Shown: positions 7,485 through 17,761 of the stretch, piece by piece | Numbering within the stretch: position 1 is the stretch's first letter | Layout: the number at the start of each line of letters is the position of its first letter | From: Henriciella sp. | GTDB taxonomy: Bacteria; Pseudomonadota; Alphaproteobacteria; Caulobacterales; Hyphomonadaceae | Direction of reading: 5' to 3' | DNA: 33,084 nt | Assembly (NCBI GenBank): GCA_013213825.1 | Contig: JABSQA010000013.1 | Span: forward strand, 1-33,084 | Notes under the pieces: model-generated | The model's database searches: none | The model's input: only the letters and a program-made list of their open reading frames with translations | Told to the model about the DNA's origin: nothing | Program-made: the position numbers and the translations under genes

Positions 7485-7560
7485 GCCTCAGCCTCTCAAA
7501 TCTGCGTTTCAGCGACGCTAGTCCGCATTGCACAGCTATTCAACGCTGCAGGCTCAGGAT

Positions 7561-9618
7561 ATGAGCAGACTTATGGATATGCTCGATCGGTTATCAACTG
7601 GCTGGAAAGCCTGGATCATCTTATTTGCGCTCACTTTGACCGCAGCCGCGCCAGGCGTGTTCAACATGCCCGCCTTGGATCGCGACGAGAGTCGATTCGC
7701 CCAAGCTTCCAAACAATATATCGAAACCGGCGATTATCTGATCATTCGCTACCAAGATGAATATCGGAACAAAAAACCCGCGGGTATTCACTGGCTACAA
7801 GCCGGCGCGACCCAATTATTTGGGGATGAGGATCGGCTAGAGATCTGGACCTATCGCGTGCCGAGTTGGATTGGTGCAGCTTTGGCGACGCTGGCGACCT
7901 TTTGGTGTGGCATTGCCTTAATCGGGCGTCGGGCGGCGTTTCTCGGCGCGGCGCTTTTTGGCACCACGCTATTGCTGACCAGTGAAGCGCATATTTCCAA
8001 AACAGATGGAATGCTGGTTTTCCTCACCACATGGGGCATTGGCGCGCTCGCGCGATTGTATATGGGCGTGGCCCAGAATCCGAAACGGATGGCGCTCGTC
8101 TTCTGGTTTGCCATGGGCTGTGGTTTGCTCATCAAAGGGCCCGTGACCCCTATGGTTGCAGCCTATGCGGGCTTTGGAGCTTGGGTCTGGGCCAAAGCTG
8201 GAGAAGGCAAAGGTGGTGACTGGTGGCGCCCGCTGGTTTGGTGGCCTGGCCCTCTGCTTGCTGCCGCGATGTTCTTGCCGTGGTTGATCGCCATTCAATT
8301 CGCAACCGACGGTACGTTTCTGCAAGGCGCGGTTGGCAAAGATCTGAAAGACAAATTCGCGGGGGCCTCGGAAGGTCATGCCGGTTGGCCGCTTTACCAT
8401 TTGAGCCACATCCCGGTCTGGTTCTACCCGGCCGTTTTACTACTCATTCCAGGCATGACTTTGGCCTGGAAATTTCTGCGTGGGAGCAGTGAGAATGCAC
8501 GTCGGCGCGGCACCGATGCTTTATTCGTTTTCGTCGCGCTCGGCGCCTTTACCGCTCTCGCAACTTGGATCTTGCCCGGCGAAATCGGCAATGGTGCACC
8601 GTCGGCTTTTGCTGGATTGATCATTTTGGGCTTTTGGTGGCTGAGCACGCGACCGGAATGGCGATCTCGATGGGCGATCGCAGACGCGGCGCCTGTGACG
8701 GATGAGATGAAAGCGATACGCTTCCTGGCGGCGTGGGCGGTTCTGACAACTGTCTTTTTCGAACTCATGCCCACGCGTCTCAGCCATTACATCCTCCCCG
8801 CCTATCCCGCCTTCGGCCTTTTATGTGGCTGGGCGGGTGTGAAGATGATGGAAGGGACGAAACTGCCGGTCTCAAAATGGCTGAGCTTTGCAGTGTTCGC
8901 GATTGGCGGCGCGGCCTTGTTATTCATCAGCTCACCGCTTGCAGCGCGCCTCGTAAAGACCGAAGCCGCCGGTGATTTTAAAACGGTTGAGTCCAGCGTG
9001 GTGATCGACCAATGGGCGGCTTATGTGAATTTTCCGCTCTGGCTCTGGATTATCGGCGCGGTGGCGTTTGCCGCGTCGATCGCGACGTTTCTCGCGCGCA
9101 AAATAGGTCTAACGGCTTTGATGGGCGTGTTGGTTAGTTTGTTCCTAGGGTGGCACGCGCGAACCTTTGTTTTGCCAACCCAGCTCTGGGCGCAGCCAAC
9201 TGAGAGCGCGCGCTTAGCCCTGCAGGGCGTCTGCGGCGTGCCGAGTGAAACATGCGATGATGGCCGAACTAGCCCTGAGCGAATCCTTGCGGTTGGCTAT
9301 GCCGAACCATCCTATGTGATGACGTTCGGGACGCAGAACTTGCATTCACCCGAAACACCACTTTCGCTGCCAACCGATCAAATGGCTTATCCTGTGGTCT
9401 ATTTGATTAACCTGGAAGGCCGTGGCAGTCCGCCAAGTCGATGCGCGGCGCTCGGTGAAGAGTGTATCCCGCCCGCGCCTGAAATTCGCGACGATCTTCT
9501 CGAACAGGCCCGCGAGGCTGGCGTTTGTGGGGCGCAATCTGATCGGGTCTATGCATTGAACTATTCCAATGGGGATCCGGCGCATTTCGTGGCCTATCGG
9601 TTCGATACCGGCTGCTAG
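7561..9618 (+). CDS. GT39-type (ArnT/PMT-like) membrane glycosyltransferase
   Basis: A GT-C glycosyltransferase that would use a polyprenyl-phosphate sugar and act on the periplasmic face. Early in the protein the catalytic loop reads ALDRDESRFAQAS, followed by NKKPAGIHWLQA, typical of the ArnT/GT39 group. About ten or more membrane segments follow, and TRLSHYILPAYPAFG marks the second conserved loop. The acceptor (lipid A, O-antigen or protein) is unknown. The frame opens with a TTG at 7528, but the ATG at 7561 has GCAGG about eight bases upstream and is preferred (685 residues). Oddity: the final 130 or so residues form a soluble, probably periplasmic domain with six cysteines, including the last residue, suggesting disulfides. 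Confidence 0.85.
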   Translation: MSRLMDMLDRLSTGWKAWIILFALTLTAAAPGVFNMPALDRDESRFAQASKQYIETGDYLIIRYQDEYRNKKPAGIHWLQAGATQLFGDEDRLEIWTYRVPSWIGAALATLATFWCGIALIGRRAAFLGAALFGTTLLLTSEAHISKTDGMLVFLTTWGIGALARLYMGVAQNPKRMALVFWFAMGCGLLIKGPVTPMVAAYAGFGAWVWAKAGEGKGGDWWRPLVWWPGPLLAAAMFLPWLIAIQFATDGTFLQGAVGKDLKDKFAGASEGHAGWPLYHLSHIPVWFYPAVLLLIPGMTLAWKFLRGSSENARRRGTDALFVFVALGAFTALATWILPGEIGNGAPSAFAGLIILGFWWLSTRPEWRSRWAIADAAPVTDEMKAIRFLAAWAVLTTVFFELMPTRLSHYILPAYPAFGLLCGWAGVKMMEGTKLPVSKWLSFAVFAIGGAALLFISSPLAARLVKTEAAGDFKTVESSVVIDQWAAYVNFPLWLWIIGAVAFAASIATFLARKIGLTALMGVLVSLFLGWHARTFVLPTQLWAQPTESARLALQGVCGVPSETCDDGRTSPERILAVGYAEPSYVMTFGTQNLHSPETPLSLPTDQMAYPVVYLINLEGRGSPPSRCAALGEECIPPAPEIRDDLLEQAREAGVCGAQSDRVYALNYSNGDPAHFVAYRFDTGC

Positions 9619-9708: not shown

Positions 9709-10365
9709 ATGGACTTTGATGAACCGCACCGGAAACCGGAAGGGTTACGGGATCGAATTGCGTTCACATTCGTGAAATTCCTGCGCTTTTTCGCCGATCT
9801 TTTCTTTCGCAAACGCTATGGCCATCGCGCCGTCGTATTGGAGACTGTGGCCGCTGTTCCAGGCATGGTCGCAGGCTTGCTCCAGCATTTGCGCGCCGTC
9901 CGAAGAATGCGAGACGATCAAGGCTGGATCAAGGAGCTCTTAGACGAAGCTGAAAATGAGCGCATGCACTTGATGACCTTTATTCAGGTGGCTCAACCGA
10001 CATTGTTTGAACGCGGGCTAATTATGGTCGCGCAAGCGATCTTCTACAATTTCTACTTCTTCCTCTACCTGTTCGCCCCGAAAACCGCACACCGAGTTAT
10101 CGGCTATTTCGAGGAAGAGGCGGTCACCAGCTATACGCATTATCTGAAAGAGATTGATGCCGGGCGGCTTGAGAACGGACCCGCCCCGCAAATTGCGATC
10201 GATTATTGGGATTTACCCGCCAATGCTCGGCTCCGTGACGTCGTGATCGCGGTCCGCGAGGATGAAGCAGGCCACCGCGACCGCAACCACTATTTCGCTG
10301 ATACGTTGATTGCAGGCGATCAACCCGAAGCGAAAATCGCTGACTATGCGCTGCGCAACACGTAG
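9709..10365 (+). CDS. aox: Alternative oxidase (diiron ubiquinol oxidase)
   Basis: This 218-residue protein oxidises ubiquinol and reduces oxygen to water without pumping protons, bypassing cytochrome oxidases; the family resists cyanide and NO. All four signature boxes are present: LETVA (E45), NERMHL (E84, H87), FEEEAVTSY (a ligand Glu within 135-137) and REDEAGHRDRNH (E186, H189). The 39-residue spacing E45-E84 and the E-x-x-H pairs match the diiron ligands of trypanosomal AOX. A hydrophobic membrane-facing stretch lies at about 103-123. The start is fixed by AAGGAG at good spacing. It follows the glycosyltransferase after 90 bases, with its own palindrome. The 3' end overlaps the convergent GST gene by 22 bases. 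AOX is patchy in bacteria. Confidence 0.96.
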   Translation: MDFDEPHRKPEGLRDRIAFTFVKFLRFFADLFFRKRYGHRAVVLETVAAVPGMVAGLLQHLRAVRRMRDDQGWIKELLDEAENERMHLMTFIQVAQPTLFERGLIMVAQAIFYNFYFFLYLFAPKTAHRVIGYFEEEAVTSYTHYLKEIDAGRLENGPAPQIAIDYWDLPANARLRDVVIAVREDEAGHRDRNHYFADTLIAGDQPEAKIADYALRNT

Positions 10366-11291
10366 CCGACCCGTGGGAAGTGAATGTGCAGATTGTCTGC
10401 ACGTTCATCCTGGCGGGCGATGATGACACGCTCTGAATTGGCGATGACGAGATCACCCTCGACCCAGTCTTTGGCGTAATCGTCCGGGGCGATCGCGACC
10501 CTGGCGCCTGGCTCAAAGTCGCGCAGGTCGCCTGCGGTCGAGGCGGGTTTCAAGCGGGGTGCAGCGGCATGCGCGATTTGTATGGCGTCCTCGCCACTAA
10601 TTTCCTCGGGGTCTTGGCCCTTGAACTCTTTGAGACGGTGATACCAGTCCTTGGTCAGCGGCGTTTTTTCGAAACAGGTCTCGAGAAAGTCTGGAATATT
10701 CTTCTCCACAAACCATGGATTCATGAAGGCATGGACATCGACCATGCCGGGTTTGGTCCCGACCAGCCAATCGCCCGTACCTGCGAGACGTCCGCCGGAG
10801 AGCCGTTCCTCAATCCATAGCAATTGAGCGAGCCACTGGTCCCTCATGATCGGGGCGGCGGCCTTCATCGCTTCCGTATCAAAGGGACGACCGGACATCT
10901 TCGTCCGATCGTCGATAAACTCTTTTGGCATATGCTCGCCAATCGCCCCGAAAATGACGGCCACACTGGTCTGGAACCATTTGCCGTCCGTCCAAGCGGC
11001 CACCATTTTTGCCAAGCCTTCGTGGCCGGGAAGGTTCAATGCTGGGATCTGAAACCGTTTCTCGAGTTCAGTCAGCATGATTGAGGTATCGCAGAAAATA
11101 TCGGCGCCGATTTGCATGACCGGTGTACGGCGATAACCGCCCGTCAAAGGCGTCAGATCGGGTTTCGGCATAATTGATGGAATTTCGACCGACGCCCAGC
11201 CCAAATTCTTCATCCTCAGCGCCAATCGGATCTTCTCCGAATAGGGCGAACGATCGAATTGATGAAGAATAATGCTTTGCGCGTTTGCCAT
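10344..11291 (-). CDS. Glutathione S-transferase-like protein with extra C-terminal domain
   Basis: The protein has 315 residues. Residues 1-80 form a thioredoxin-fold GST N-domain with the active-site region RSPYSEKIRLAL (S15-P16) and the TPVMQIG cis-proline segment that binds the gamma-glutamyl moiety. Residues about 90-225 are a helical GST C-domain. The last 80 or so residues (from about 235), with FEPGARVAIAPDDY and ERVIIARQDERADNLHIHFPRVGY, are an additional beta-rich module not found in ordinary GSTs of about 210 residues. Substrate is unknown. GGGAGG precedes the ATG. It is divergent from the acyl-CoA synthetase operon and convergent, with a 22-base overlap, with the alternative oxidase. 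Confidence 0.85.
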   Translation of the reverse strand: MANAQSIILHQFDRSPYSEKIRLALRMKNLGWASVEIPSIMPKPDLTPLTGGYRRTPVMQIGADIFCDTSIMLTELEKRFQIPALNLPGHEGLAKMVAAWTDGKWFQTSVAVIFGAIGEHMPKEFIDDRTKMSGRPFDTEAMKAAAPIMRDQWLAQLLWIEERLSGGRLAGTGDWLVGTKPGMVDVHAFMNPWFVEKNIPDFLETCFEKTPLTKDWYHRLKEFKGQDPEEISGEDAIQIAHAAAPRLKPASTAGDLRDFEPGARVAIAPDDYAKDWVEGDLVIANSERVIIARQDERADNLHIHFPRVGYVLRSA

Positions 11292-11406
11292 CTTATTTGC
11301 CTCCCCAGACGAATTTCTCAGCCTAACCGTGTTCGTTTGGGCTTTCCAAGTGCCGATTGTCCCCTAAAACCAAAAGAAACACAAAACTTACCGAGGAGCG
11401 CCACAA

Positions 11407-12978
11407 ATGTTGGACACCAATTCGATGCCGCACGTCGCGGACATTCCCCGCGTACAAAGCGAATTGCGCCCGGATGAAGTGGCGTTTTGGTTTCAAGGCG
11501 AAGAGACCACATTTGCGCAGCTTAATTCGCGTGCAAATCAAGTTGCAAACGGACTTGCCGCGCTCGGAGTCACGGCAGACCAACGGGTCGGCTATTTGGC
11601 AAAGAATACAGCTGTCTACTATGAGATGATGTATGGCTGCGCCAAAATTCGCGCCGTGATGAACGGCGTGAATACGCGGCTCGCGGCGCCTGAGGTTCAG
11701 TTCATTTTATCGGACGCACAAGTTCGGGTCCTTTTTGTCGGTCCCGAATGGATCGAGATGATTGAACAAATCAAAGATGAGTGTCCGCATCTTGAACATG
11801 TCATCACGATTGGTGGCGACCACGCGAATTTACCAGATTATACCGCCTGGCGAGATACCCAGGATGACCGTGCGCCAGGTATCGAAACGCAAGACGATGA
11901 TGATGTTATTCAGCTCTACACATCTGGCACGACGGGTCTGCCAAAGGGTGTGATGCTGACCAATGCCAATTATCGTTCTTTTCTAGAACAGGCTGGGCGC
12001 CTGGATTGGGCGAGCTACGAAGCTGGTGATACGGTGATGAACGCGATGCCGCTCTTCCATGTGGCGGGCGTGAATGCTGGCATGGTCGCGACGGCTCAAG
12101 GGTCGCGATCGGTGGTTCTGCCAGAGATCAATCCAGCGGAAATCCTTGACCTGATCGAAACGCAGAAAATCAACCATGCGTTCTGGGTGCCAGCGGTGAT
12201 ATTGATGTTGTCACAAATGCCGGATTTCCGCGACCGCGATTATTCGTCCCTGCAGCAAGTTTTCTATGGCGCATCACCGATCACCGAAGACCTGCTGACC
12301 CTGGCGGTCGAGGTTATGGGCGCCAAGTTCACCCAGCTCTATGGCCTGACCGAAACGGTGGGTGGCGGGACTTATTTGCCGCCGGAAGCGCATGATCCAA
12401 GCTGGGGTAAGCTCCGTTCGTGCGGGGTGCCATATCCGGCGACGATAGTCCGCTGTGTCGACGCCAAAGGTGACCCCGTGCCAACCGGCGAAGTGGGCGA
12501 AATCGTCATCCAATCGGGTTTTGTTATGAAAGGCTATTGGAACCGTCCTGAAGCCACTGAAGACGCTATTCGGAATGACTTCTTCCATACCGGAGATGCT
12601 GGCTACTTTGACGAAGACGGTTTCTTATTCATCCATGACCGCGTCAAAGACATGATCGTTTCGGGTGGTGAAAACGTATATCCGGCCGAAGTTGAGAATG
12701 CGATTTTCGGGCACCCTGATGTCGCGGACGTGGCCGTGATCGGCATTCCGGATGAGAAATGGGGCGAGGCGGTGAAAGCGATCATTGTGCCGAAAGAAGG
12801 CACCAATCCAACCGCTGAAAGTATCATTGCTTGGGCACGTGAACGGATTGCAGGCTATAAATGTCCGAAATCTGTTGACCAGATTGATGCTTTGCCACGC
12901 AATCCATCCGGGAAGATCCTCCGCAAGGATTTGCGGGAACCCTATTGGGAAGGTCAAGAGCGGCGCGTTGGAGGCTAA
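11407..12978 (+). CDS. Acyl-CoA synthetase (AMP-forming, ANL superfamily)
   Basis: The 523-residue enzyme activates a carboxylic acid as an acyl-adenylate and then forms the acyl-CoA. The phosphate-binding loop YTSGTTGLPKG lies at about 170-181. The A5 region reads QLYGLTETVG, the hinge region is HTGDAGYFDEDGFLFIHDRVKDMIVSGGENVYP, and the catalytic lysine lies in PSGKILRK near 501-507. The overall pattern resembles FadD3/FadD13-like or medium/long-chain ligases, but chain length cannot be read from sequence. GAGGAG is well placed before the ATG. It is the first gene of a tight operon: only two bases separate it from the aminotransferase gene, which in turn overlaps the sulfotransferase gene. 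It is divergent from the GST gene. Confidence 0.95.
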   Translation: MLDTNSMPHVADIPRVQSELRPDEVAFWFQGEETTFAQLNSRANQVANGLAALGVTADQRVGYLAKNTAVYYEMMYGCAKIRAVMNGVNTRLAAPEVQFILSDAQVRVLFVGPEWIEMIEQIKDECPHLEHVITIGGDHANLPDYTAWRDTQDDRAPGIETQDDDDVIQLYTSGTTGLPKGVMLTNANYRSFLEQAGRLDWASYEAGDTVMNAMPLFHVAGVNAGMVATAQGSRSVVLPEINPAEILDLIETQKINHAFWVPAVILMLSQMPDFRDRDYSSLQQVFYGASPITEDLLTLAVEVMGAKFTQLYGLTETVGGGTYLPPEAHDPSWGKLRSCGVPYPATIVRCVDAKGDPVPTGEVGEIVIQSGFVMKGYWNRPEATEDAIRNDFFHTGDAGYFDEDGFLFIHDRVKDMIVSGGENVYPAEVENAIFGHPDVADVAVIGIPDEKWGEAVKAIIVPKEGTNPTAESIIAWARERIAGYKCPKSVDQIDALPRNPSGKILRKDLREPYWEGQERRVGG

Positions 12979-12980
12979 AT

Positions 12981-13907
12981 ATGATCGATGATGCGCATGG
13001 CGTGCATGATTTTGTCTATGATGCGCGCAATGCTGACATCCAAGTCTCCGTCAATGGCGTCCTAAAACACAGAGATGAGGCCACGGTCTCCGTCTTCGAG
13101 AGCGGTTATTTGCTCGGCGACGGTGTGTGGGAAGGCCTGCGCGTGTATAATGGCGGCGTGGCCTTCTTAGATGCGCACATGAAGCGGCTCTATGCGGGCG
13201 CTAAGACGATCGATATGGACATTGGCCTCACGCCGACAGAGCTGAGCCAACAATTGTTTGATTGTTTAAAAGCGCAGGGCATGACGGATGGCGTGCACAT
13301 CCGCTTAATGGTGACGCGCGGGATTAAGAAAACGCCCTATCAAGGCCCACGCTTTACCATCACGCCGCCGACCGTCGTGATCATCCCAGAATATAAGGCT
13401 CCTGTGCCCGAAATCCGTGCCAAGGGCGTGTCATTGTTCACCGCCCATATCCGTCGCACCGGACCGGCGGAGCAGGATCAAAAGCTCAACTCGCACTCCA
13501 AGCTGAATTGTATTCTGGCTTGTATACAAGCTGACAAAGCCGGGGCGGACGAAGCTCTAATGTTGGATCCTGATGGCTTTGTGGCGACCTGTAACTCAAC
13601 GCATTTCTTCATCGTCCGAGACGGTGAAGTTTGGACGTCGCCGCCTGATTATTGTTTGGGTGGAATTACGCGCGGCAATATTATTCAGGTCTGTCGGGAG
13701 AATGGCATTCCAGTATATGAAAAGCGCTTCTCCTTATTCGATGTTTATTCAGCAGACGAAGCCTTTATCACGGGCACGTTCGCAGGCACGACGCCGGTGC
13801 GCGAAGTCGATGGACGGGTCTTGTCGAGCCTAGACGGCCCCATCACTCAGCGATTGTCAGACCTCTATCAAAAGCTGATCGAAACAAAGCTGACGCCGAT
13901 CACATGA
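12981..13907 (+). CDS. Class IV PLP-dependent aminotransferase (BCAT/D-AAT-like)
   Basis: The protein has 308 residues of fold-type IV. Branched-chain aminotransferases, D-amino acid aminotransferases and aminodeoxychorismate lyase share this fold. Conserved points: ESGYLLGDGVWEGLRVYNG near the start (about 40-58), a Schiff-base lysine in QKLNSHSKLN (K169 fits IlvE spacing best), DPDGFVATCNSTHFF (196-210) and GTFAGTTPVREVDGR near the end. The frame is open from 12945, but the ATG at 12981 has GGAGG just upstream and begins at the usual place, so it is chosen. It lies two bases after the acyl-CoA synthetase stop and overlaps the sulfotransferase by ATGA. Whether it acts on branched-chain or other amino acids is open. 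Confidence 0.92.
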   Translation: MIDDAHGVHDFVYDARNADIQVSVNGVLKHRDEATVSVFESGYLLGDGVWEGLRVYNGGVAFLDAHMKRLYAGAKTIDMDIGLTPTELSQQLFDCLKAQGMTDGVHIRLMVTRGIKKTPYQGPRFTITPPTVVIIPEYKAPVPEIRAKGVSLFTAHIRRTGPAEQDQKLNSHSKLNCILACIQADKAGADEALMLDPDGFVATCNSTHFFIVRDGEVWTSPPDYCLGGITRGNIIQVCRENGIPVYEKRFSLFDVYSADEAFITGTFAGTTPVREVDGRVLSSLDGPITQRLSDLYQKLIETKLTPIT

Positions 13908-14644
13908 CCGACCCGTGTTTGAGGATCGCGATGTGGTCGGGCCCGCGCAACATGTCGACGACCATGATGCGCAGTTTCGGCGCGCGCTCAGACACAGAAT
14001 GCGTGGATGAACCCTTCTACGCTGCCTATCTTAAGAATACGGGCTTGCGACATCCCATGTCGGACCAGATCTTTGACGCTCAGAGCACGAATCCAATCGA
14101 GATTGTCGCTGATTTGACATGTCCGTCCGAGAGCGACCCGCCCATATTCTTCCAAAAGCACATGACGCACCACATGGTTCCAGCGCTTCCACGATCTTGG
14201 ATGCAGGATTGCCGAAACCTGTTTTTGATCCGGCATCCGGCCAGGGTGATGGCATCCTATGCACGGAAAATGGAGAGGGTCAGCTTATCCGCGATTGGTT
14301 TCCCACAGCAGCTAAGCCTGTTCGAATCCGCAATGGAAATGGAGGATCAAACACCTCTGGTGATCGATAGTGATGACATATTGCACAATCCCGAACAGAT
14401 GCTTCGATCCTTATGTGATGCGCTTGGGATTGAATGGGATGATGCAATGCTGTCCTGGTCGTCCGGACCGAAACCCGAAGATGGCGTCTGGGCGCCGCAT
14501 TGGTATGATGCGGTCTGGCGTTCAAAAGGGTTCGGCCCGCCGCCAGGGGATCTTCCAGAGGTGCCAGCCTCGCTTGCGGACGACTATGCGCGGGCATTGG
14601 AGATTTACGAGCTTCTCGCGGACGATCGCCTTCTTAGCCACTGA
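13904..14644 (+). CDS. P-loop sulfotransferase-family protein
   Basis: The product is 246 residues. A 5'-phosphosulfate-binding-like loop (residues 11-22, WSGPRNMSTTMM) follows the first strand. A 3'-phosphate-binding-like segment LFLIRHPARVMASY (105-118, with R109 and S117) matches the PAPS-binding pattern of sulfotransferases. DEPFYAAYL and the C-terminal tail are typical of a bacterial group seen next to class IV aminotransferases. It would transfer sulfate from PAPS, though members of this group have no well-known substrate. Its ATG overlaps the aminotransferase stop (ATGA), implying coupled translation. From memory, plant proteins called branched-chain aminotransferase-like fuse the same two domains, which supports a functional link. 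A hairpin-rich non-coding stretch follows. Confidence 0.85.
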   Translation: MTDPCLRIAMWSGPRNMSTTMMRSFGARSDTECVDEPFYAAYLKNTGLRHPMSDQIFDAQSTNPIEIVADLTCPSESDPPIFFQKHMTHHMVPALPRSWMQDCRNLFLIRHPARVMASYARKMERVSLSAIGFPQQLSLFESAMEMEDQTPLVIDSDDILHNPEQMLRSLCDALGIEWDDAMLSWSSGPKPEDGVWAPHWYDAVWRSKGFGPPPGDLPEVPASLADDYARALEIYELLADDRLLSH

Positions 14645-14656
14645 TCGGGTCTCGCT

Positions 14657-14824
14657 CGGTGCCGTGGAAACATGTCGATCCTATAGGCGCACAGGACCGA
14701 AAGCGCCGTCTCGGGTACTCGTATCCCGTCGACCTAGAGACTAGGTGGGCACCGGTTAGATAGGACCACGGTCCAGTCCAGAGCCAGTTCCCTGACGGAA
14801 CTTAAGGTCGGCGGATAGCTGACC
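14657..14824. ncRNA. Hairpin-rich non-coding region, possible structured RNA
   Basis: The gap from 14645 to 14869 holds no gene but many exact stems. CGGTGCC (14657-14663) pairs with GGCACCG (14748-14754) and encloses three hairpins: GGCGC/GCGCC (14686-14707), CGGGTA/TA-CCCG with one bulge (14712-14728) and ACCTAG-AGA-CTAGGT (14732-14746). Outside it are AGTTCC/GGAACT (14786-14802) and GGTCGGC/GCTGACC with one G-T pair (14806-14824). It lies between the 3' ends of two convergent operons. I checked by eye for tmRNA, RNase P, 6S and SRP RNA signatures and found none. Strand and transcription are unknown. Confidence 0.4.
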
Positions 14825-14869
14825 GTCCTCGAACGCTCCAGCCTCTGTGCTGAAGCCATATAGGCATGA

Positions 14870-15184
14870 TTAGGCTGCGGCGCTAGCTTCGCCGAGCTGT
14901 CGCAAATAAGCCCAGGTGTATAAACCGCTAGAATGCCCATCGCTGAAGTGGATCCGCACCGCATAGCGGCCAACCTCATCGGCTTTCTCAACATCCAAAT
15001 CAGGGCTGATAATGGGCGGCGGAGGCTTGGGGCCATTGCCATGACCTTGCACTTCAGCCGATGGGCTCTCCAAGCGCAGCGTTTTGTACGGGAGCGTGAA
15101 GCGCTTCCCATCATCATAAGCGATGGTCAAAGCCTTAGCGCTCTTGGAAAAGCGCAGCTCCGTCGGCCAAACGCGCTGAGTCAT
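14870..15184 (-). CDS. DUF971-family protein (GBBH-like N-terminal domain)
   Basis: This 104-residue protein has the DUF971 pattern [21 protein letters not shown], then [19 protein letters not shown] and a C-terminal [26 protein letters not shown]. The fold is the small N-terminal domain of gamma-butyrobetaine hydroxylase and also occurs fused to or near Fe-S assembly proteins (ApbC/Mrp). Its exact role is unproven. The gene starts inside the Trm112-like stop (ATGA overlap), as the last gene of a four-gene minus-strand block of CnoX, Lon-N, Trm112-like and DUF971, an arrangement I recognise from other Alphaproteobacteria. The metal ligands of the family's optional zinc site are not obvious. 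Confidence 0.85.
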
Positions 15185-15399
15185 GCGGTCGGCGCCTCTA
15201 AGTCACGCGCTTCGGATTCTAGCAAAATCGGCAATCCATCGCGGATCGGAAAGGCGAGTTTCGCTTTCTTAGAGACCAGCTCACAAGCCTCCTTATCGAA
15301 CATGAGCGGGCCACCGGTGACGGGGCAGATCAGCACTTCGAGCAGGCGGGGATTGACGCCGCAGGGGCTGGTTGTTGGGGCTTGTGTATCTTCGGTCAT
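15181..15399 (-). CDS. Trm112-like small protein (UPF0434/YcaR type)
   Basis: The protein has 72 residues. The conserved pattern [14 protein letters not shown], then [26 protein letters not shown], is that of the Trm112/YcaR family. In eukaryotes and archaea Trm112 activates methyltransferases for tRNA, rRNA and release factors; the bacterial role is less clear. The second Cys pair of zinc-binding members is absent here, since only C27 and outlying C13 and C39 occur. A zinc site is therefore doubtful. It overlaps Lon-N upstream and DUF971 downstream by four bases each, so the three are very likely cotranslated. Confidence 0.88.
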
Positions 15400-16058
15400 T
15401 GCAAGGTCGAGCTGTCATCGCCCGGCACGTCCATGTCAAGCAAAGTGATTAGGGTCTGCGCCCGTTCGGCAACGCTTGAGGCTTCAAGGAGCGCTTGTTT
15501 TTCCTGGGTGCCGAACGGACAGCCAGCGCATAGCGCGTTGATCAGGGTCTCCATCGGCGCGTGCTCTACCGCTTCCCAATCGACTTCCATTGAATTGATC
15601 TGGGTGTAGCGTTTCAACGAGTTCACCAATTTCAAGCGCTCCGGGAGGCTGCTCTCTGGCGGTGAGACCAAATCATGCACGAAGGCCTGCCAATCTGGTT
15701 TCACGCGTCGATAAGGCGTCTCGACTTGAAGCTCCGCCTCTATGCCAAACCGGCAAATGCCGGTGAGGGAGATCAGATAGCGGCCATCGTCTGTTTCAGA
15801 ATAAGATGTGATACGTCCGGCGCAGCCCGTATTGGCCAGGCTTGGGTGGACGCGATCATCGCCTTGTGACTGGATCATACCTATCAGCCGACTGCCCGAC
15901 ATGGCATCATCAATCATATTCAAATAGCGCGGCTCAAAAATATTCAGCGGCAAAGACCAACGCGGAAACAGAAGAACGCCCGAAAGGGGGAAAATCGGAA
16001 TGGTCTCTGGTAAATCCGAGGGTTTTCGATAGGTCTCGTGTGGCACGCTGACTCCCAT
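15396..16058 (-). CDS. LON peptidase substrate-binding (N-terminal) domain protein
   Basis: This is a stand-alone Lon N-domain protein of about 220 residues lacking the ATPase and protease domains. Diagnostic sequence is [29 protein letters not shown] near the start, followed by IGMIQS and GCAGRI. In Lon this domain binds unfolded substrates; the free-standing form is common in Alphaproteobacteria and its role is unproven. The frame is open to an ATG at 16076, but that has no ribosome site. The ATG at 16058 follows GGGAAA and lies at a more usual distance from the domain, so I chose it with moderate confidence. It is downstream of CnoX, whose chaperone role fits a protein-quality theme. Confidence 0.88.
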
Positions 16059-16121
16059 TTTCCCGTGTCTTACCATAAAATGGAGTGAAACGGCGAACAG
16101 GCGAGTCTCGTCTGGTCAAAT

Positions 16122-17116: not shown

Positions 17117-17761
17117 TTAACTGCTACCGGCATTTTCCCAGACTTTGGCCACGCGCTTATCGCGGCCGCAGCCAACCCGGTACAATTTATAGCGTGCTGG
17201 GTTCTTCTGGTAATAGTTTTGGTGATAGCCTTCGGCTTCGTAGAATTCGGTCTCGTCTAGGACACGCGTAACGATTGGGGCCGCAAGAATGCCCGCTTGA
17301 TTGATCGCTTCAAATTGCGCTTCGACTTCGGCACGTTCGTCGGCATTATCAACAAACACGGCTGTACGATAGGAGTTACCACGATCACAGAATTGGCCGC
17401 CATCATCAGTGGGATCAATGTGGCGCATGAAATAGTGGACCAGTTCGCCATACTCAACTTTCGACGAGTCATAGACCACGCGCACGGCTTCTAGATGGCC
17501 TTGCTTGGTGTGGGTCTTATAAGTTGGATTCGTGCTATTCCCGGCGGTGTAGCCCGATACGGTTTCGAGCACGCCATCCACCTTATCGAAATCACTCTCA
17601 ACGCACCAAAAGCAACCGCCTGCAAAAATAGCGGTTTCAATGTTCGCATTGCTGGTGGCAACGTCCGGTCCATTTTCGGCGCCAGCGCTCATCACAAAAG
17701 AGGCCATCGTGGCCAAGCCGCCTGCGATCATAGCGATAGAGAAAGGATGATTCAGTTTCAT
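17117..17761 (-). CDS. msrA: Peptide methionine sulfoxide reductase MsrA, exported form
   Basis: It reduces methionine-S-sulfoxide in proteins. The catalytic motif GCFWCVE has nucleophile C50; C128 (QFCDRG) and C203 (VGCGRD) could serve as resolving cysteines. EGYHQNYYQKNP is the conserved C-terminal motif. The protein has 214 residues. The first 28 or so form a signal peptide (basic KLNH start, hydrophobic core, cleavage near SAGA), so periplasmic action is predicted, unlike the cytosolic E. coli MsrA. The next gene downstream is cnoX, another oxidative-damage function, after 104 bases. The 121 bases upstream should carry its promoter. Confidence 0.95.
   Translation of the reverse strand: MKLNHPFSIAMIAGGLATMASFVMSAGAENGPDVATSNANIETAIFAGGCFWCVESDFDKVDGVLETVSGYTAGNSTNPTYKTHTKQGHLEAVRVVYDSSKVEYGELVHYFMRHIDPTDDGGQFCDRGNSYRTAVFVDNADERAEVEAQFEAINQAGILAAPIVTRVLDETEFYEAEGYHQNYYQKNPARYKLYRVGCGRDKRVAKVWENAGSS

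Follow-up and report, generated by a model that had tools for sequence, protein, structure and literature searches.

A putative PAPS-type sulfotransferase and a lysine-less aminotransferase-fold protein are encoded by a conserved gene pair in Henriciella sp. and other bacteria

Three consecutive forward-strand genes of Henriciella sp. (GenBank assembly GCA_013213825.1, contig JABSQA010000013.1, positions 1 to 33,084; this whole stretch of 33,084 nucleotides is called the window) raise the question of which of their products work together, and on what kind of molecule. ACS (11407..12978, 523 aa) encodes an acyl-CoA synthetase of the PRK06187 subfamily. It is followed by AT (12981..13907, 308 aa counted from ATG), which encodes a class IV aminotransferase-fold protein without the catalytic lysine, and by ST (13904..14644, 246 aa), which encodes a putative sulfotransferase of the Sulfotransfer_5 family (PF19798), of the type that uses 3'-phosphoadenosine 5'-phosphosulfate (PAPS). 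A sequence-only reading of this DNA had described three tightly coupled genes, and the coordinates, the 2-base spacing of ACS and AT and the ATGA start-stop overlap of AT and ST (13904..13907, forward strand, read from the sequence) were all confirmed. The AT start was taken as the ATG at 12981, whereas the open reading frame (ORF) list opens AT at a TTG at 12945; the ATG is preferred because a ribosome-binding-like GGAGG, assigned by inspection at 12970..12974 on the forward strand, ends 6 bases upstream of it. The answer that we favour, tentatively and with slightly less than even confidence, is that ST is a PAPS sulfotransferase and AT its lysine-less class IV fold partner, handling an amino-acid-like molecule.

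AT and ST occur together more often than expected by chance. A strong ST was defined as a PF19798 match with E <= 1e-50, and an AT-positive genome by a match to an AT profile with E <= 1e-80. Among 398 genomes of the phylum, where scoring was limited to the best 7 or 5 first-look candidates of each genome and some matches may be missed, a strong ST was found in 37 and AT in 41; 37 genomes have both, four have AT alone, and 357 have no AT. The number of shared genomes expected by chance is 3.8 (Fisher p 5e-48, a value that ignores relatedness). Among 61 relatives the AT set and the ST set are identical, with 29 genomes each, and a strong ST without AT was found in neither sample (37/37 and 29/29 with AT). 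This strict co-occurrence supports the earlier suggestion that the pairing is probably functional. Genome G394 has only a weak PF19798 match (1.5e-16) and no AT. In Caulobacter vibrioides, one of the control genomes, PF19798 found no match. Genome G026, which is 84% complete, was scored negative, and this is not a true absence, since a truncated AT is located at a contig end beside ACS (locus L193).

The conserved adjacency that had been proposed as a check was also found. Of the 37 AT-ST pairs, 28 are no more than 300 bases apart, while nine are unlinked with both genes still present. In 80 named AT loci from Pseudomonadota, Bacteroidota, Balneolota, Fidelibacterota and Actinomycetota, ST is located downstream on the same strand in 52, with a spacing of 50 bases or less in 44 (spacings are approximate, as the ST starts are BLAST alignment starts). 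ST is on the opposite strand in three loci and is not in the fetched DNA in 25, six of which have less than 1.7 kb fetched downstream. Searches of 19 genomes of these 25 loci revealed a strong ST elsewhere in 14, a weak one in three and none in two. The order is swapped with the genes still touching in L040 (G389) and L048 (G091). Loci with both genes were found in Alpha- and Gammaproteobacteria, Bacteroidota, Balneolota, Marinimicrobia and Actinomycetota; several of the non-Pseudomonadota loci are metagenome bins, and L106 and L111 are isolates. With adjacency and co-occurrence above chance, AT and ST are a conserved two-gene unit. Clustering of neighbouring genes, made with a crude longest-ORF gene caller and with antisense shadow ORFs included, revealed no third partner common to most AT-ST loci.

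Some features of individual loci were also noted. Genes that by inspection look like MsrA and ArgG are located near Rhodobacteraceae-type ST loci, and this proximity looks like shared chromosome order. The MsrA-like gene, recognised by a GCFWC motif that we take to mark it, is found in 14 of the 100 clustered loci and adjoins ST in L057; in the window MsrA (17117-17761) is 2.5 kb from ST, which may reflect chance or shared chromosome order. A YjbR-family gene stands between AT and ST in one locus (L091:10927-11319). Within the genus, identity to the window is 53-78% for ST and 70-90% for AT, with ST diverging more.

ACS is probably a mere neighbour of this unit and not part of its function. 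The protein features the Pfam domains AMP-binding and AMP-binding_C and matches NCBIfam PRK06187 with E 6.1e-169 (562.7 bits, above the cut-off of 476). ACS is present in 29/29 genomes of the genus, once in each of the 28 others at 68-85% identity, and eight of these genomes lack both AT and ST. ACS adjoins AT-ST in 17 of the 20 ST-positive genus genomes, the window included, and is apart from the pair in G010, G023 and G027; the distance between ACS and AT goes up to about 490 bases (L221). An empty site was found in L191 (G003), which has the order LON - GBBH-like - ACS - GST - AOX as in window 9709-16076, without AT-ST. Its genes are 77-85% identical to those of the window, and about 240 bases separate the GBBH-like gene from ACS. 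The LON - GBBH - ACS junction without AT-ST is also found in G007, G013 and G022 (240 to 780 bases), and in G023 and G027, whose AT-ST pair is located elsewhere. In G002, G019, G021 and G025 the 1.5 kb of DNA retrieved next to ACS did not include a GBBH-like gene, and the empty site is thus seen in four of the eight AT-ST-less genus genomes. The empty sites, together with the presence of ACS everywhere in the genus, suggest that AT-ST is a two-gene cassette gained or lost here. A recent foreign origin of the cassette was considered and rejected, its GC contents of 0.535 and 0.552 comparing with 0.519-0.595 for nine other window genes. A close ACS is beside AT in none of the 87 AT-bearing loci outside the genus. 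In 100 loci (87 with AT, apparently none of the genus), an ACS-like gene above 150 bits was found in only four, and all are distant: L087 (42%, 9 kb), L088 (29%, 5.7 kb), L103 (31%, 1.3 kb) and L140, where a paralog with 28% identity is located 181 bases from AT on the opposite strand. The sequence-only reading had named rarity of the three genes together elsewhere as a finding that would count against it; beyond the genus this is what was found for the trio, while the AT-ST pair is found together well outside it.

AT has a transaminase fold with an altered active site. The protein matches Aminotran_4 (PF01063, E 2.4e-44), and its closest solved structure is 7z79 (E 5.3e-101). The AT model superposes on 7z79 with a Z-score of 38.8 and a root-mean-square deviation (rmsd) of 1.8 A over 297 residues at 52% identity, and on archaeal branched-chain aminotransferases (BCATs) with Z-scores of 33.4-33.9, which places it in class IV. 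The roles of the catalytic lysine, the glutamate, the tyrosine and the phosphate-cup residues are assumed here to be those of E. coli IlvE. A phmmer alignment to the archaeal BCAT 5mqz pairs the lysine of IKSLNYLNN with Asn170 of AT in a gap-free stretch, the tyrosine with Lys174, and the glutamate of VSEGSGDN with Thr203. The phmmer alignment of 7z79 likewise reveals Asn at the position of the Schiff-base lysine, and 9j32 is an N174K mutant of the 7z79 protein, mutated at the position equivalent to Asn170. Loop 169-171 of the AlphaFold model has a predicted local distance difference test score (pLDDT) below 50, and the position of Asn170 rests on the alignment and on 7z79/9j32.

The lysine loss extends to the whole family. 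The column of the Schiff-base lysine holds Asn in 123/123 AT rows, a set that counts the window's own AT and some near-duplicates (L047 and L077 represent a single contig), and in 110/110 rows of an overlapping set. The column of the glutamate that contacts the pyridine N1 of the cofactor holds Thr in 114 and Ser in nine of the 123 rows. Twenty-two canonical paralogs, two from the window's own genome and twenty from other genomes, all have the Glu and a Lys in that region; gaps in this alignment shift the lysine region of the distant paralogs, and the Lys assignment rests on the phmmer alignment. The phosphate cup (Arg54, the GIT and TGT motifs, Thr230 and Thr266) is retained: Arg54, His66, Arg69, Thr230, Thr264 and Gly265 are invariant in the 123 rows, and Thr266 is present in 122. 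Additionally, Asn170, Ser173, Asn205, His106, Arg108 and Gln121 are kept in 110/110 rows, and His106 and Arg108 presumably belong to a pocket for an amino-acid substrate. Such invariance of the altered site speaks for an active site that is being preserved more than for one that has relaxed. Residues 174 and 203 vary together, with Lys174 and Thr203 in 98 of the 110 rows, Arg174 and Ser203 in 12, and no mixtures. The 12 rows, including the clade nearest 7z79, form a single supported clade in a quick tree with open forks (row L240 was disregarded there and is included instead in the 110-row set), which points to one change and not many. The transamination with pyridoxal 5'-phosphate (PLP) that had been predicted for AT is thus contradicted at the lysine position in every row; judging from its residues, AT would be no ordinary transaminase, and the textbook reaction of the family is unlikely.

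ST matches PF19798 with E 3.5e-69 (233.1 bits, cut-off 23.2). Its landmarks are the loop W11-SGPRNMST19, Glu36, Lys85 and R110-P112..S118; the loop (P14 R15 S18 T19) is taken to be the 5' phosphosulfate loop, and R110...S118 the 3' phosphate motif. Both PAPS-type motifs are present in 78/78 aligned ST proteins, in which W11, P14, R15, S18, T19, E36, K85, R110, P112, S118, W185 and W196 count among the invariant positions. Among solved structures, the ST model (pLDDT 95.5) is best matched by the olefin synthase of Synechococcus (sulfotransferase domain; Z 14.6, 3.5 A, 214 residues), by the corresponding domain of CurM (Z 13.9), and by human tyrosylprotein sulfotransferases (TPSTs) in complex with 3'-phosphoadenosine 5'-phosphate (Z 14.0-14.6, rmsd 4.3-4.6, 207-211 residues). 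Profile searches also found CurM (1.7e-9) and the olefin synthase (4.7e-7). Identity to solved sulfotransferases is only about 15%, and the Foldseek TM-scores are modest, 0.42-0.60 at the top. The sulfate transfer from PAPS that had been predicted is supported by the motifs and the confident model, and ST is likely to use PAPS. The window's own genome encodes an adenosine 5'-phosphosulfate (APS) kinase, so PAPS probably can be made. A second PF19798 group (L053-L056 and others; E 1e-14 to 1e-21, 24-31% identity to ST) was also observed and is apparently a different sulfotransferase-like family; in L055 the weak PF19798 gene adjoins an SDR-like gene, named by inspection.

In the favoured reading, ST would bind PAPS and pass the sulfuryl group to a small acceptor, as its motifs and fold suggest. 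AT would no longer transaminate; without the Schiff-base lysine it would most likely bind an amino-acid-like molecule, either by itself or together with a B6-type or other phosphate ligand held non-covalently in the retained cup, and would select, present or process the molecule that ST sulfates. The two proteins would then act on the same molecule, which is probably amino-acid-like given the His106/Arg108 pocket and the importer genes found beside AT in relatives that lack ST.

Several observations weigh against this reading. AT-ST fusions were not found among two sets of loci examined (one of 100). P-loop kinases also appear in the Foldseek list for the ST fold, ranked below the sulfotransferases. 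APS kinase is near universal, being found in 58/61 relatives (56 strong; weak only in G039 and G046) and as a strong match in 29/29 ST-positive genomes and 27/32 others, so PAPS supply does not discriminate. AT occurs without any PF19798 match in G303, G334, G278, G384, L117 and L142 (G278 and G384 belong to one genus and are not independent), and with a weak ST only in L086, L115 and L122; since AT is found without a strong ST, it can work without this ST there. Moreover, an importer set beside an ST-adjacent AT was seen in only 1/52 loci (L137), where it is partial and on the opposite strand. The importer and ST contexts do not mix, and an amino-acid link may therefore not carry over from one to the other.

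In five of the six AT genomes without a PF19798 match among those searched, G334 being the exception, AT ends a polar amino-acid ABC importer set with the order SBP_bac_3 binding protein, two permeases, ATPase and AT. A GntR-FCD regulator heads the set in L239 and L117, and L239 also includes a ProC-like reductase. An opposite-strand gene separates the binding protein from the permeases in L241 and L242, and L142 ends at a contig edge with one permease and the ATPase visible. The importer genes of L117, L142, L241 and L242 are 43-70% identical to their L239 counterparts. Similar sets in a different order (39-60%) were found in L112, with a strong ST elsewhere in its genome, and in L122, which has a GntR gene downstream and whose genome has weak ST matches only. 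The remaining loci of the 101 examined have partial or distant importer matches at most; ten of the 101 had flanks of about 1.5 kb only. The tree places the importer clade of five among ST-linked AT proteins, which makes the ST association probably the older one. 7z79 is nearer to the importer branch, with 426 bits against L117 and 343 against L001. The importer sets link AT, without reference to ST, to an amino-acid-like molecule that is taken up by the cell, and extending this link to the ST-linked AT proteins would be a step of analogy.

The same evidence has to be weighed for other explanations. AT may be a catalytically dead, ligand-sensing or stabilising subunit of ST that responds, for example, to an amino acid or a vitamin B6 phosphate. 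The replacement of Lys as well as Glu in 123/123 rows and the absence of any strong ST without AT point this way; however, the altered site is invariant in 110/110 rows, as would rather be expected of an active site under preservation, and AT is retained next to importer genes where ST is lacking. This role is rather unlikely. Similarly unlikely is a scheme of two separate consecutive steps, with a lysine-independent AT reaction on an amino-acid-like compound and sulfation of its product by ST without physical partnership. The nine genomes with unlinked yet co-occurring genes and the AT genes that stand alone beside importers agree with such a scheme, whereas a spacing of 50 bases or less in 44 of the 52 linked loci suggests more than loose membership, without being decisive.

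The three-enzyme operon pathway of the sequence-only reading, with ACS activating an acyl group, AT acting as an ordinary PLP transaminase and ST transferring sulfate, has the 2-base gap, the ATGA overlap and the adjacency in 17/20 ST-positive genus genomes in its favour. It is highly improbable, as ACS is found in all 29 genus genomes including eight without AT-ST, the LON-GBBH-ACS junction has no AT-ST within it in G003, G007, G013, G022, G023 and G027, no close ACS was found in the 87 outside loci, ACS and AT can be as far as about 490 bases apart, and AT has no Schiff-base Lys. Hardly any credence is given to AT being an active transaminase via Lys174 or another substitute lysine. Lys174 is near Asn170, at a distance of four residues, and 98/110 rows have Lys at this position, but it was rejected as a substitute because the other 12 rows, including the clade nearest 7z79, have Arg there, always with Ser203; moreover, the depositors of 9j32 engineered their lysine at the Asn170-equivalent position. 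A more specific form of the favoured reading, in which AT and ST together would be a novel type of B6-fold enzyme system, is doubtful and draws on general chemistry: AT would hold an amino acid, or its imine or enamine with PLP or pyridoxamine 5'-phosphate, while ST would add a sulfonate or sulfate group to it with PAPS as the donor. The resulting sulfo-amino acid could be an osmolyte or a sulfonate precursor, possibly on a PAPS:2-aminoacrylate sulfotransferase route to cysteate or a similar one. Thr at the pyridine N1 is a feature of fold type II enzymes, to which Thr203 may be compared, and to our knowledge the gene for PAPS:2-aminoacrylate sulfotransferase is unassigned.

Elsewhere in the window, an alternative oxidase gene, AOX (9709-10365, 3.6e-85), overlaps an opposite-strand GST-like gene at its end. 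A 696 aa protein encoded at 7528-9618 is matched by no Pfam family and distantly by ArnT (PRK13279, 2.7e-11), and is a possible membrane glycosyltransferase. Promoter and terminator scans found nothing beyond the range of shuffled sequences.

Among the matches listed from an open-access collection with few subscription journals, no title or opening of an abstract dealt with the pairing of AT and ST, with the family that lacks the lysine or with 7z79. The fold of AT is already known from 7z79, and ST belongs to a known family, PF19798; the strict AT-ST pairing and the family-wide lysine loss are new as far as these matches go. A table of PMC10040529 includes Cluster_1089 'Aminotransferase class IV' and Cluster_1090 'Sulfotransferase' among 113 salt-tolerance ORF clusters, with an association to salt tolerance in six strains (0.81). 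These clusters may correspond to the AT-ST pair, but the salt link, from one table of six strains, is a lead only. One of the model reactions named in PMC7990286 is that of 2-aminoacrylate sulfotransferase, and where PMC11625862 lists PF19798 it attaches no function to the family. Term searches did not find 'sulfotransferase' in PMC9309667 or 'aminotransferase' in PMC4199319. The AT family is probably mislabelled in many genomes, judging from its residues, and a sulfated or sulfonated metabolite may be common.

The pair resembles several known systems in part. Plant branched-chain-aminotransferase-like (BCAL) proteins, according to the sequence-only reading, fuse aminotransferase and sulfotransferase domains, whereas AT and ST of the window are two separate ORFs. 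BCAL2 is termed an 'uncharacterized aminotransferase-like sequence' in the part of PMC11477356 that concerns it. The sulfotransferase domains of CurM and the olefin synthase, along with the TPSTs, are the best profile and fold matches of ST; ST differs from the CurM/olefin synthase type in being free-standing, with 246 aa and about 15% identity, and a scan of 27 window proteins found no polyketide synthase domain. Class IV branched-chain and D-amino-acid aminotransferases share the fold, the phosphate-binding Arg and the GIT and TGT motifs with AT, but feature Lys, Glu and the O3' Tyr where the AT family has Asn, Thr/Ser and Lys/Arg. The Variovorax paradoxus aminotransferase-like protein 7z79 is alike in its Asn at the catalytic Lys position and in overall similarity; it differs in having Arg where AT has Lys174 and in being nearer to the ST-less importer branch, and its crystal structure, as that of an AT relative, makes the question directly testable.

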